Shown piece after piece: positions 46,791 through 51,293 of a DNA stretch of 64,000 bases. The stretch's first letter is position 1; every line of letters starts with the position of its first letter. The DNA is from Acidobacteriota bacterium (GTDB lineage Bacteria; Acidobacteriota; Terriglobia; Acidiferrales; UBA7541). Where the stretch lies: assembly GCA_003223215.1 (NCBI GenBank), contig QHYH01000097.1, positions 3,562 to 67,561 of the forward strand, read 5' to 3'. The position numbers were made by a program, and so were the translations under genes. The notes under the pieces are model-generated. The model did no database searches. It was not told the origin of the DNA and worked only from the letters and a program-made list of their open reading frames with translations.

Positions 46791-47621
46791 TTAGTTCAAG
46801 CACTTTGGGGATGGCGAGGAGCGCGGGGAATTTTCAGCCGTGCTGTCGCTCGGGGCGTTGGTTGCCCTTTGCGAACGGGCCTTGACGCCGGAGACGACCA
46901 GCTGCAGTCCCCCGCAAAGGGCGAGCAGAGCGATCACGGCACGAAGCCGGTGAGCCGGAATGCGGCGCGAGAGCAGGCAACCCAGGAGCACGCCGGGCAG
47001 CCCGCCAAGAAGCAACGGAAAAAGCACAGACGAGCTGATCGAGCCTATGGCCCAGTGGAAAATACCGCCGATCACTGCCAATACCAGGCCGAAAAGCAGG
47101 TCCGTGCCGACGACTTGCGAAGGCGTCATTTCCGAGTAATTGAGAAGCAGCACCGTGCCGAGCGCGCCGGCTCCGGCGGAAGAGAAACCTGATTCGACGC
47201 CGATAGGAAAAGCAAGCCAGGGCAGCCATTGGGAATTCCTGTAAATGAATTCGGGCTTGCGTGCGCGCGGCGCAAAATGAAGAGCTGCAGTGAGAGCCAA
47301 CACGACTCCGAGAAGGATGACGACGGTCGAGTTGCCGCCGCGGGCGGTCACAAAGCGAAGCACCAAGGTTCCCGACAAAAGGCCCGGAACCGCGCCGCGC
47401 AGCAGCAGCCAGAAATACCGCGAGTGAATCTGGCGGCTGAAGAGATAGAAAGGGGCGGCAACCAAACGCACAAACCCCGCGAACACAAAGGCAGTGCCGA
47501 CAGCTTCCCCGGCAGGAAGACCCGCAAAAAGCAGGAGAGCGGGCACGGTGAAACTTCCGCCGCCGATTCCGGTAAGTCCGACGGCGAGCGCAATAACGAA
47601 TCCGATCAGAAGTTGCGTCAT
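46791..47621 (-). CDS. TauE/SafE-type sulfite or organosulfonate exporter/permease
   Basis: A 276-residue membrane protein with about 8 helices. The N-terminal GFVIALAVGLTGIGGGSFTVPALLL and the second-half GVESGFSSAGAGALGTVLLLNY are the paired glycine-rich motifs of the family. The ATG at 47621 overlaps the cysH stop (ATGA), and it is the last gene of the cys operon. It therefore probably moves sulfate or sulfite, or exports excess sulfite, for the pathway. Confidence 0.88.
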   Translation of the reverse strand: MTQLLIGFVIALAVGLTGIGGGSFTVPALLLFAGLPAGEAVGTAFVFAGFVRLVAAPFYLFSRQIHSRYFWLLLRGAVPGLLSGTLVLRFVTARGGNSTVVILLGVVLALTAALHFAPRARKPEFIYRNSQWLPWLAFPIGVESGFSSAGAGALGTVLLLNYSEMTPSQVVGTDLLFGLVLAVIGGIFHWAIGSISSSVLFPLLLGGLPGVLLGCLLSRRIPAHRLRAVIALLALCGGLQLVVSGVKARSQRATNAPSDSTAENSPRSSPSPKCLN

Positions 47622-48325
47622 TCCGCACGCTCCGAAAAAGTGTGAATGCCGCATTCCAGCTTGCGACCGCCCCAGCGCCCCGAGCGCGCGTTGGCCGGAT
47701 CAGCGGGAAGCGCCGTGCAAGGCTCGCAGCCGATGCTGGGATAGCCGGCGTCGTAAAGCTGCAGATAAGCTAGACGGTGACCGCCGGTGTATTCCCAAAC
47801 TTGTGCCCAAGCCCAATCGGCGAGCGGGCTGACCTTGAGCAAAGTCTTGCCGCTCGGAAGACGATGATGCTCAATCTTTTTTAGATTTGCGCGCGTGGGC
47901 GATTGCTCGCGGCGCAGACCGGTGAACCAAATGTCAAAAGGCTCCAGCGCCTTCATGAGCGGCGCGACTTTGCGAAGCTGACAACACGCCGTAGGGTCCG
48001 ATTGATACAGCAAGCCGCGCTCCGCTTCCTGCTGCGCCACGGTTTTTTCCGGGAGAACGCTTACCAAGTTCAGGTTCCACTCCGCGGCCAGGCGGTCGCG
48101 GAACTCGCAGGTGGCGGCGAAGTGGTAGCCCGTCTCTAGAAAAAGCACCGGGATCTGCGGCAGGCGCTTCCGTAGAAGATCGAGCACGATGACGTCCTCT
48201 GCTTGAAAACTGCACGTGAGACAGGCGCGCGCGGCTTGCGAATCAGCCAGAACCACATCCAGAAACTGCTCGATGTTCAAAGCTTCGCTCTGTTGCGAGG
48301 AGAAAGTGTTGAAAGCCACGTTCAT
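47618..48325 (-). CDS. cysH: Adenylyl-sulfate (APS) reductase, CysH family
   Basis: A 235-residue protein of the PAPS/APS reductase family. LTCSFQAEDVIVLDLL is the nucleotide-binding PP-loop region, and GLRREQSPTRA is the conserved substrate loop. A Cys-Cys pair (about 114-115, CCQLRKV) and a later CxxC (CEPC) are the four ligands of the [4Fe-4S] cluster that marks APS-type rather than PAPS-type enzymes. The C-terminal LECGIH holds the catalytic Cys. It reduces activated sulfate to sulfite with thioredoxin. The ATG at 48325 lies next to the cysN stop, with AAAGGA upstream. Confidence 0.93.
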   Translation of the reverse strand: MNVAFNTFSSQQSEALNIEQFLDVVLADSQAARACLTCSFQAEDVIVLDLLRKRLPQIPVLFLETGYHFAATCEFRDRLAAEWNLNLVSVLPEKTVAQQEAERGLLYQSDPTACCQLRKVAPLMKALEPFDIWFTGLRREQSPTRANLKKIEHHRLPSGKTLLKVSPLADWAWAQVWEYTGGHRLAYLQLYDAGYPSIGCEPCTALPADPANARSGRWGGRKLECGIHTFSERAE

Positions 48326-48326
48326 T

Positions 48327-50087
48327 TCAAAATTCCTTTCCGGCCGGCTTGTGTTCTGGAGAAAGGCGCAGTTTTCCGGCAAAGCTCAGCGTGTCTTGGA
48401 TGAGTTGCGCACCATTGGTTTCTGCGTCTTGCTTTACCGCGGCCGGGATTTCTGTTGCCTTGAAAATGTCCTCGAGAGGAAGCTCGGGCAGGTCTTCCGG
48501 CGCTAGCGTTGTATTCGTGCAAAGCACGACCAGGCCCGCGGCGTAGAGCGCAGTCAGGAACCCTGCGAGCACCGGCGAAGCCACGCCGGAGCCATCCACA
48601 ACGACGGACTCGAAACCGCCTTGAAACAGTGCCCGCTCGAGCGACTTTGCCAGCGACAGGCGGTCGCCGAGCAGCAGAATCCCTGGCTTGTGGCCGTGAC
48701 GGAGGTGCCTTTCTTGCGCCGTGAGGTCTCCGGGTGCGGCCACACGCGTAGCGGGGTTCCGCTCCTCGAGGCTCGTCGTGTCCGCGACAAACGTTTCGCG
48801 GACCATGCCGGCTCCCACGGTGGCGTTCGAGAATGGATCAATCAGAATGAAGCTGCCGGTAGCACGGCTCGTGGTGTAAGCGTCAAGAAAAAGCGGCTGA
48901 CTCGTCTCGACCTCCACTTCCGCGATACCGTTCATTTCCAGTCGTTCGGCGGGCTCGTGTTCGAAGCTGTTCACGTTGACGCGATGAAGAATCCGGCGAA
49001 CGCAGGCCTTGACCGATCGCGTAGTCTGTTTCAAAAGAAGCGGCTTTTCGATCCAAAGCGGATCCACGTGAAGCCAGACCACCGCGGCGGAAAAGTTGCG
49101 CGAGACCGCGGGAAGACTCGACGGAGAAACCAACATGTCCCCGCGACTCAAATCGATTTCGTTTTCGAGCTGCACAGCGATCGACTGTGGCGCAAACGCC
49201 TGTTCCCGGTCGCCGTCAAACCCGACAATCCTTTTGACACGCGTTTCCTGGTGGGACGGGAGCGCCACAAGCGCATCCCCCGGACGCAGCGAGCCGCTCG
49301 CCAATTGCCCCGCAAATCCGCGAAAGTGAGAATCCGGCCGAATGACGTACTGAATGGGAAAGCGCACGCGATCGAGCGAGCGAATTTGGCGAAACTCCAC
49401 CGTTTCGAGATGGCCTAAAAGAGTCGGTCCCGAATACCACGGCATGTTTTCGCTAGCGCTGACGATGTTGTCGCCCGCCAGCGCGCTAATCGGAATGCAC
49501 TCGACCAAAGGGATGCCCAATTGTGCAGCGAGCGCCAGGAAATCGCGTTGTAAACGGATGAAAACATCTTCGCGGTAACCCACGAGGTCCATTTTGTTGA
49601 TCGCCGCAACAACCGAGCGAATCCCCAGAAGGGAGGCGATGTACGCATGGCGGTTCGTCTGGGTAAGCAGGCCCTTGGTGGCGTCGACCAGGATGATCGC
49701 CAGGTCCGCCGTGGAAGCGCCCGTGGCCATGTTGCGTGTGTACTGTTCGTGGCCCGGCGTGTCAGCAATAATGAATTTGCGGCGGGAGGTGCTGAAGTAA
49801 CGATAGGCAACGTCTATGGTGATGCCCTGCTCGCGCTCAGCGCGCAAACCGTCGGTCAGCAGAGAGAAATCGAAAGCGCCGCCGGAGCGGTTAATTTTGC
49901 TCTTTTGCACCGAGGCGACGTGATCTTCATAGACGGCCTTCGCATCATGCAGCAGGCGGCCGATCAGCGTGGACTTGCCGTCGTCCACGCTGCCGGCGGT
50001 GGTAAAGCGCAATAGATCTTTGCGCAAGTCGCCGTCAAGAAACGCCGCAAGGCTTTCCGACCGTTTAGAAGCGGCAAACGTCAGCAT
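48327..50087 (-). CDS. cysN: Sulfate adenylyltransferase large subunit CysN with degenerate APS kinase domain
   Basis: A 586-residue protein. Residues about 20-450 are CysN: the GTPase motifs GSVDDGKSTLIGRLL, DTPGHEQYTRNM and NKMDLV, then the two beta-barrel domains. Residues about 459-560 align with a CysC (APS kinase) domain, but the expected P-loop GLSGAGKST reads LLGDRLSLAKS, and other kinase motifs are missing. With CysD it makes APS from ATP and sulfate, driven by GTP. The tail is probably structural. ATG at 50087 overlaps the cysD stop (TGATG). Confidence 0.94.
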   Translation of the reverse strand: MLTFAASKRSESLAAFLDGDLRKDLLRFTTAGSVDDGKSTLIGRLLHDAKAVYEDHVASVQKSKINRSGGAFDFSLLTDGLRAEREQGITIDVAYRYFSTSRRKFIIADTPGHEQYTRNMATGASTADLAIILVDATKGLLTQTNRHAYIASLLGIRSVVAAINKMDLVGYREDVFIRLQRDFLALAAQLGIPLVECIPISALAGDNIVSASENMPWYSGPTLLGHLETVEFRQIRSLDRVRFPIQYVIRPDSHFRGFAGQLASGSLRPGDALVALPSHQETRVKRIVGFDGDREQAFAPQSIAVQLENEIDLSRGDMLVSPSSLPAVSRNFSAAVVWLHVDPLWIEKPLLLKQTTRSVKACVRRILHRVNVNSFEHEPAERLEMNGIAEVEVETSQPLFLDAYTTSRATGSFILIDPFSNATVGAGMVRETFVADTTSLEERNPATRVAAPGDLTAQERHLRHGHKPGILLLGDRLSLAKSLERALFQGGFESVVVDGSGVASPVLAGFLTALYAAGLVVLCTNTTLAPEDLPELPLEDIFKATEIPAAVKQDAETNGAQLIQDTLSFAGKLRLSPEHKPAGKEF

Positions 50088-51064
50088 CAGAAATAGCCCT
50101 CGCGTTTCTTCAATTCCATCGATCCTTCCTCGTCGTGGTCGATGGCGCGGTTCTCGCGTTCGGACCGTCGGAAGGAGATCATCTCTTCAATAATCTTTGG
50201 AACGGTATCCGCCTCGGAGCGAATCGCGCCTGTGCACGGAATGCACCCGAGCGAGCGCATGCGGCACTTGATCCATTGAACTTTTTCGCCAGGCAAAAGT
50301 TCGTCGCGAGAGTAGATCAGCACGATCGTGCGGTTGCGCACGACCGCCTGGCGTTCGCGCGCGTAATAAAGCGGAACGATGGGGATCTTTTCCGCGTGGA
50401 TGTAGAGCCAAACGTCGAGTTCCGTCCAGTTGGACAGCGGAAAAACGCGAATGCTTTCCGATCTTTCGATGCGCGAGTTGAAAAGATTCCAAAGCTCCGG
50501 GCGCTGGTTTTTGGGATCCCATTGGCCCTGCGAATCGCGAAAAGAATAAATGCGCTCCTTGGCGCGGGATTTTTCTTCATCACGCCGCGCGCCGCCGAAA
50601 GCGGCGTTGAACCCTCCGGCAGAAAGCGCATCGAGCAAAGCTTTCGTTTTCAACAAGCCGCAGCATCTCTGCGTGCCGAGCGCAAAAGGATTGGCGCCGC
50701 GCGCGAGCGCCTCGCGGTTTTGATGCACGATGAGCTCCGCGCCGATTTCACGCGTGTAGGAATCGCGAAACTCGATCATTTCAGGGAATTTGTAACTGGT
50801 GTCGATGTGCAGCAGCGGAAAGGGAATTTTCCCCGGGTAAAAGGCTTTTTGCGCCAAGCGCAGCATGACCGAGGAATCTTTGCCGACCGAATATAGCATG
50901 ACGGGCCGGGAAAATTCCGCGGCAGCTTCGCGCAGGATAAAGATGCTTTCATCTTCGAGGGTCGCAAGATCGCCGAGACGGCCCTCCAGCGCAGTCGGAA
51001 AGAAAGTTTCGGAAAGTTCCGGTATCAGCGTTTCCTCTGGCAGCCGCAGCGCTCGAACAGTCAT
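50087..51064 (-). CDS. cysD: Sulfate adenylyltransferase small subunit CysD
   Basis: A 325-residue PP-loop ATP pyrophosphatase: [36 protein letters not shown] and [15 protein letters not shown] are diagnostic. It adenylates sulfate with CysN. The preferred start is the ATG at 51064, with GGAAGGGAC about 7-15 bases upstream. An in-frame TTG at 51142 would extend it into the leader terminator, so that longer form is rejected. It is the first gene of cysD-cysN-cysH-tauE and follows a structured leader with an intrinsic terminator. Confidence 0.96.
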
Positions 51065-51105
51065 ATCCTGGGTCCCTTCCCGGAAAAATGTCCCCAAAAG
51101 ACACA

Positions 51106-51139
51106 AAACCCACCTGCCAGCTCTCCTGGCGGTGGGTTT
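51106..51139 (-). terminator. Terminator in the cys leader
   Basis: Stem AAACCCACC/GGTGGGTTT plus GCCAG/CTGGC with one bulged base and a 5-nt loop. On the minus strand it is followed by TGTGTCTTTT. It lies about 40 bases ahead of cysD, inside the transcript, as expected of an attenuator. Confidence 0.8.
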
Positions 51140-51167
51140 CAAAACTCAATCGGCTAGATGTTTGTAC

Positions 51168-51257
51168 CTAGACCGCTTGCCTCCCTGCGCCAGAAGACAC
51201 TCCCGCACAACAACAGCCGCTTGCGCGATTCTGGCGAAGTTGGCTCGCGTAACTCAC
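51168..51257 (-). CDS. Cys-operon leader peptide with three consecutive Cys codons
   Basis: A 29-codon frame starting with GTG at 51257 and ending at TAG (51168-51170). Codons 15-17 are TGT TGT TGT (51207-51215). The GTG lies 8 bases downstream of the -10 box, so it is probably at or next to the transcript's 5' end, making the peptide leaderless. The sequence is low complexity, and the three Cys residues are the only striking part. Leaderless polycysteine peptides controlling sulfur genes are known from mycobacteria; the analogy is mine. It is too short to be proven by sequence alone. Confidence 0.6.
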   Translation of the reverse strand: MSYASQLRQNRASGCCCAGVSSGAGRQAV

Positions 51258-51264
51258 GGTTAAC

Positions 51265-51293
51265 AGTGTACCCTGCATGCCCTATAGATGCAA
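51265..51293 (-). promoter_or_regulatory. Promoter of the cys operon
   Basis: On the minus strand TTGCAT (51288-51293), a 17-nt spacer and TACACT (51265-51270). The predicted start is 51257-51258. Confidence 0.65.

Follow-up and report, generated by a model that had tools for sequence, protein, structure and literature searches.

A probable leaderless transcription attenuator for cysteine upstream of cysD in Terriglobia, and related leaders at other operons

Attenuators of the trp, thr and his type in E. coli carry sensor codons in a leader peptide and follow a logic of three RNA pairings, 1:2, 2:3 and 3:4. A different control is reported from mycobacteria, wherein the poly-Cys uORFs studied by Canestrari in 2020 are said to control access to the ribosome-binding site. 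The original prediction for the locus described here had pointed to such leaderless polycysteine peptides at mycobacterial sulfur genes, and the literature indeed describes leaderless poly-Cys uORFs at work in mycobacteria (Canestrari 2020, as cited in PMC13236596). Cys leader peptides that lack terminators are described from Mycobacterium, P. acnes and B. longum (PMC1262725). The trpL leader of Sinorhizobium meliloti is a leaderless attenuator, with a transcript that starts with the leader-peptide ATG (PMC7298713), and a Cys transcription attenuator has been proposed for the uORFC-8-2 motif upstream of cysS in Rhodobacterales (PMC8632094). From Acidobacteria, predicted attenuators have been reported without assigned functions (PMC2965389).

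We analyzed the leader upstream of cysD in a 64-kb stretch of DNA (the window), whose nearest matches among named records are Acidobacteria gp2 MAGs, in agreement with its initial assignment as Acidobacteriota-like. The leader is best read as a transcription attenuator in which the ribosome mediates the sensing of charged tRNA-Cys, a reading to which we give a probability of about 0.9. This reading is based on the conserved Cys cluster, the spacing of the -10 box, the terminator and the exclusive 1:2, 2:3 and 3:4 pairings, and the comparison of divergent leaders supports the cysteine-responsive transcription attenuator that had been proposed from the single sequence.

The Acidobacteriota leaders share the 1:2 / 2:3 / 3:4 logic and the leader-peptide sensor codons with the E. 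coli-type attenuators. Unlike those, they are probably leaderless and mostly have their sensor codons after segment 1 and before segment 2; their ORF extends across segment 2, and the segments are reused at operons that serve different amino acids. The mycobacterial uORFs are, like them, poly-Cys and placed before several sulfur operons, and are leaderless, cysteine-responsive and ribosome-coordinated, as the Acidobacteriota leaders are predicted to be. They have no conserved terminators, whereas the Acidobacteriota leaders have intrinsic terminators and covarying antiterminators. Transcription attenuation and a transcript start at the leader start codon (probable in the Acidobacteriota leaders) are common to S. 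meliloti trpL, which differs in that it concerns Trp and one operon and belongs to the Alphaproteobacteria (PMC7298713). The uORFC-8-2 motif likewise has a tandem-Cys uORF, an intrinsic terminator and a proposed ribosome-mediated transcription attenuation; it differs in phylum, in its target (cysS) and in having two Cys codons, and the available part of its description contains neither a multi-operon regulon nor a platform common to other amino acids (PMC8632094).

A literature search found no paper that describes this Acidobacteriota system. Because Cys attenuators and leaderless attenuators have each been published, the earlier claim of novelty was too strong for the principle. What is new, as far as could be checked, is the combination of a predicted Cys attenuator, probable leaderless initiation and a putative multi-operon regulon in Acidobacteriota, together with its scale.

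The cysD leader and its conservation

All leader features lie on the minus strand of the window, and direct re-reading of that strand confirmed every coordinate originally given for them. A -35-like hexamer, TTGCAT (51288 to 51293), is placed 17 nt before a -10-like hexamer, TACACT (51265 to 51270), which lies 7 nt before the leader GTG; a TANACT-type box at 6 to 8 nt is kept across leaders. The promoter-like pair matches 8 of the 12 consensus bases. The GTG at 51257 opens a probably leaderless ORF of 29 codons plus TAG (VSYASQLRQNRASGCCCAGVSSGAGRQAV*, 51168 to 51257), which was defined by sequence and comparison and continues AGT TAC GCG AGC CAA CTT CGC CAG AAT CGC GCA AGC GGC TGT TGT TGT ... 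GTC TAG, with the stop codon at 51170 to 51168. The putative sensor codons are the TGT TGT TGT triplet, Cys codons 15 to 17 (51207 to 51215), which falls in a conserved Cys cluster. The window contains just two short ORFs that encode Cys-Cys-Cys, and of these only the leader ORF has a -10 box at the distance expected for a leaderless start.

Segment 1 (CGCCAGAA, 51229 to 51236), identified by folding and a permutation test, has segment 2 as its partner. Segment 2 (TTCTGGCG, 51188 to 51195) lies within the leader ORF, past the Cys codons, and folding and comparison allow it to pair with segment 1 or with segment 3. Between segments 2 and 3, a small predicted hairpin holds the leader stop codon (51152 to 51174), and relatives have GGCTAG/CTAGCC versions of it. 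Segment 3 (CGCCAGGA, 51124 to 51131), assigned from sequence and comparison, contributes to the 5′ arm and to the loop of the intrinsic terminator hairpin (3:4; CCCACCGCCAG/CTGGCAGGTGGG, 51106 to 51139), which was recognized by folding and comparison and has a bulged A and a T tract. When positions 51257 to 51107 were folded without constraints, exactly 1:2 and 3:4 formed (z = -3.8; 0 of 200 shuffles equally stable). Neither the window promoter nor the leader terminator passes a plain consensus promoter/terminator scan because of the 8/12 promoter match and the bulged stem. Both calls therefore rest on comparison, not on the single sequence.

Behind the leader, also on the minus strand, NCBIfam models assign cysD (sulfate adenylyltransferase small subunit, CysD; 50087 to 51064, start ATG at 51064), cysN (sulfate adenylyltransferase large subunit, CysN; 48327 to 50087) and a cysH-type APS/PAPS reductase (cysH / PRK02090; 47618 to 48382, with the ORF taken from its first possible start), which bears out the predicted cysD-N-H order. 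The last gene of the run (ORF at 46791 to 47654, minus strand) encodes a membrane protein that has no match in an NCBIfam search, and its initial TauE-like label is a candidate name only. The window additionally contains a tRNA-Sec (selenocysteine tRNA) gene at 2678 to 2772 on the minus strand (Rfam tRNA-Sec, 65.4 bits).

A long structured leader with a terminator upstream of sulfur genes would also fit a metabolite riboswitch (for SAM or O-acetylserine, for example) or a T-box that governs the terminator. We consider this extremely unlikely: Rfam returned no leader family or riboswitch match for the window at the gathering threshold or for seven related loci at E ≤ 1, the uORF, the three segments and the terminator use up nearly the whole leader, and the sensor codons agree with the pathway of the downstream gene.

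To assess conservation, we used 110 cysD loci, taken both from the genome's relatives and from publicly available genomes, with some genomes present twice. The set spans the Terriglobia, including Candidatus Acidiferrales, Granulicella, Edaphobacter, Terriglobus and others. An early test of the attenuator reading, whether relatives keep the Cys cluster, came out in its favor in that most Terriglobia loci have a Cys-rich uORF upstream of cysD, with clusters such as CCMCC, CCMCMCC, CCCTCC and CCCCC in most of the 110. In the more distant families of the class (loci L112-L124 and L126-L130), a leader of the window type is absent before cysD. Seven Granulicella/Edaphobacter loci (L081, L028, L089, L084, L077, L083 and L075) carry poly-Cys uORFs before cysD, such as MVVFVSCACCCCRMLPCPCPRCCR, behind TATACT-type boxes and without an intrinsic terminator. 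The readout thus seems to have changed between families.

Outside the Cys cluster, the leader peptide is variable except for an SSGAG motif near its C terminus, which is the coding image of segment 2. Conservation of the cluster and of SSGAG could point to a functional Cys-rich small protein, perhaps metal- or redox-sensing, for which the RNA structure is secondary. This explanation is very improbable given that the rest of the peptide varies freely, that SSG merely codes segment 2 (TCTTCTGGC), and that Thr or Trp/Tyr codons are found on the same platform before aspartokinase or DAHP synthase.

The position of the -10 box was examined by comparing in-frame with out-of-frame ATG/GTG codons in the same DNA for 102 leaders with a Cys cluster. 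A TANNNT box lies 6 to 8 nt upstream of 66 of 182 in-frame starts versus 2 of 56 out-of-frame starts (Fisher p = 1.8e-7), a statistic to which close relatives contribute leaders that are not independent of one another. A Shine-Dalgarno-like stretch was seen at only one boxed start. Since this distance corresponds to normal -10 to +1 spacing, the start codon is probably at or adjoining the RNA 5′ end in vivo, and the conserved spacing supports the predicted RNA start close to 51257.

Alternative pairings and the switch

Terminators were located by folding before T tracts, which yielded 46 leaders with a terminator preceded at short distance by a Cys cluster. Nearly every leader of the window lineage has a strong terminator and T tract between the uORF and cysD, and in most leaders the stop codon lies 23 to 35 nt before the terminator. 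The 2:3 pairing is better than in dinucleotide shuffles (p ≤ 0.05) for 38 of the 46 leaders and does not exceed shuffles at that threshold for 8. For the window leader alone, 1:2 is marginal against shuffles (p = 0.06).

In the nearest alignment, the segments are nearly invariant and 5 of 7 pairs never vary, so covariation there is limited. Therefore, we turned to divergent lineages and to arm swapping. The terminator arm differs between lineages, with CCCACCGCCAG replaced by CCCGCCCTCGG, CCCACGCACTG, CCATCGCCGGT or other versions; segment 2 and the 3′ arm vary together with the 5′ arm, and in both pairings many positions of the arm show changes on both sides. Positions 12 and 13 of the arm, which are mostly in the terminator loop, are still paired in 2:3, with A-U, G-C and C-G variants. 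The arm-swap permutation tests employed 44 leaders of divergent sequence, reduced to one leader per distinct arm. For 2:3 (23 arm classes), a leader's own arm gave -17.9 kcal/mol versus -14.75 ± 0.52 kcal/mol for swapped arms, and for 1:2 (24 classes) own segments gave -19.7 versus -14.9 ± 0.62, with 0 of 20,000 permutations as good in either test. Both pairings are thus kept through compensating sequence change over 23 to 24 divergent lineages. The segments lie where they were first placed, and the mutually exclusive 1:2 / 2:3 / 3:4 logic extends to the family as a whole, in which a predicted 2:3 antiterminator that excludes the terminator is conserved through sequence change.

These data bear on a translational (or Rho-dependent) poly-Cys attenuator like that of mycobacteria, wherein a stalled ribosome frees the cysD ribosome-binding site and intrinsic termination is not involved. 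Mycobacterial leaderless poly-Cys uORFs with a ribosome-binding-site mechanism are described (cited in PMC13236596), Cys leaders without terminators were found in mycobacteria (Seliverstov 2005, PMC1262725), and the Acidobacteriaceae leaders examined are mostly poly-Cys uORFs without a terminator. We nevertheless judge this mechanism improbable for the window lineage, in which a strong T-tract terminator separates the uORF from cysD and segment 2 covaries with the 5′ arm of that terminator. The mycobacterial type has no intrinsic terminator and acts on the ribosome-binding site; in the window leader, the terminator is present and covaries.

In the transcription attenuator that we favor, the RNA would begin at or next to the leader GTG, and a ribosome would load at the 5′ end and translate the leader. 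With ample Cys-tRNA, the ribosome would pass segment 2 to the stop codon and leave, 1:2 and 3:4 would form, and transcription would terminate before cysD. Under a shortage of Cys-tRNA, the ribosome would be expected to wait at Cys codons 15 to 17, which lie in the would-be loop of 1:2. The waiting ribosome would block 1:2 and free segment 2, and 2:3 would form before arm 4 is made, with the small hairpin as a cap. Once 2:3 has formed, polymerase would read on into cysD-N-H and the next gene, and cysteine shortage would thereby induce the operon.

Folding calculations indicate what kind of switch this would be. At equilibrium, 39 of 40 ribosome-free leaders favor the terminator, and it still wins in most leaders, the window leader included, when the 5′ part is hidden as by a stalled ribosome. 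Since in most leaders the terminator prevails irrespective of the ribosome, equilibrium folding was not accepted as a demonstration of the switch. In nascent RNA before the last arm, the antiterminator is favored (mean 0.55 free, 0.72 stalled). Masking segment 1, which had been suggested as a check, made no difference: in nascent RNA of the window leader that lacks arm 4, the preference of segment 2 for segment 3 is 0.75 with or without segment 1. Given that the terminator is favored at equilibrium and that 1:2 does not outcompete 2:3 in nascent RNA, the switch would be largely kinetic and co-transcriptional. In the window leader, the 1:2 stem may be insufficient by itself and contributes to an uncertain degree, and 2:3 may be opposed mainly by a ribosome in transit over segment 2.

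Related leaders before other operons

Leaders in the genome that holds the window (G000) were catalogued by searches with a pattern (segment 2 plus terminator arm) and with a covariance model built from 31 leaders. Within the genus, 35 of 36 genomes, this one included, hold at least one model match at E ≤ 1e-4; some of the matches are partial. The attenuator was initially described for a single operon, cysD-N-H-tauE. It is found there, but its scope is larger and takes in several sulfur operons as well as Thr and aromatic versions.

Three further Cys attenuators of the window type were identified in this genome, before genes for a NirA-family, a rhodanese and an outer-membrane protein. The first (MRNCCQMMCCRCACSAACQSSSISGQRSFRT, L153 / L146; G000:C215:208152-210119, minus strand), which emerged from a search of the genome for additional sulfur genes, precedes a NIR_SIR-domain gene of the NirA/sulfite-reductase family and has TATTCT 8 nt before its ATG and a terminator of its own. 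Its uORF, -10 spacing and terminator are kept in 15 close relatives, in which 1:2 and 2:3 are mostly above shuffles. This arrangement suggests that the reductase acts on sulfite, not nitrite. Another leader (MKLRSRNNAAICICCMRVSSGAGRLSI, L243; G000:C4:5500-5658, minus strand) lies before a rhodanese-domain protein, and another (MSSPGHSHQNAPSTCCICCREASSGRGRLVI, L244; G000:C109:32230-32398, minus strand) before a TonB-receptor-like outer-membrane beta-barrel protein with a carboxypeptidase-regulatory domain, which may import organic sulfur. In relatives, Cys leaders precede siroheme synthase CysG (L274) and a second NIR_SIR type (L252-L254). They also occur before genes with no obvious link to sulfur, namely a PQQ-domain dehydrogenase-like gene (L250, G004:C241) and a Porin_5 gene (L272, G039:C32). 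The fetched flanks of cysS and of the cysteine synthase genes (PALP family) in the window genome hold no leader of this kind. In contig C246 of that genome (L138 / L183), a PALP (cysM-like) gene, a JAMM-like protease gene and a gene for a CysO-like sulfur carrier stand in a row, as in mycobacteria. The poly-Cys tail of this CysO (GGCCCC, L138) was considered as a further regulator and rejected because the tail after GG varies in relatives. Cys leaders before several sulfur operons would constitute a regulon in which the ribosome does the coordinating and a regulatory protein plays no part.

A fifth leader of the same genome (MMTIATKRIKSMSTTSTKTNKTISASGDGRNS, L263; G000:C148:100528-100618, plus strand), a partial model match, is rich in Thr, Ser and Ile and precedes aspartokinase. 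Aspartokinase leaders with the same arrangement, such as MSANLTKRKPSRITRSIISTTTITTIMCTTTASGDGRNR, occur in relatives (L282, L284-L287, L289-L291, L293 and L294), and the leader MNARLANSYWWYRFTWHPSGWRGVFL of a relative (L292; G032:C319, minus strand) has Trp/Tyr/Phe sensor codons before DAHP synthase. For the aspartokinase and DAHP synthase leaders, 2:3 is above shuffles and 1:2 mostly so. The Thr and Trp/Tyr sensor codons agree with the pathways of their downstream genes, a match that is hard to explain except by charged-tRNA sensing. One RNA platform thus appears to serve several amino acids via swapped sensor codons; the Thr/aromatic and Cys leaders may share a common ancestor or may have converged on the same design.

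Meaning for the Terriglobia

The finding offers one attenuator family a function, and a sensor open to testing, in a soil phylum that is abundant and has received little study. It would combine probable leaderless initiation with intrinsic-terminator attenuation over several operons, and would extend to reuse of the platform across amino acids. We think it likely that Terriglobia possess a modular family of leaderless attenuators, copied before many operons, that forms ribosome-directed regulons without protein regulators for sulfur and at least the threonine and aromatic pathways, and in which the codons predict the target pathway. Such leaders could serve as a tool for function prediction, in that a gene's pathway would be readable from the sensor codons ahead of it. 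If this is true, the NirA-family reductases would be sulfite reductases and the outer-membrane beta-barrel protein would be a transporter of organic sulfur.
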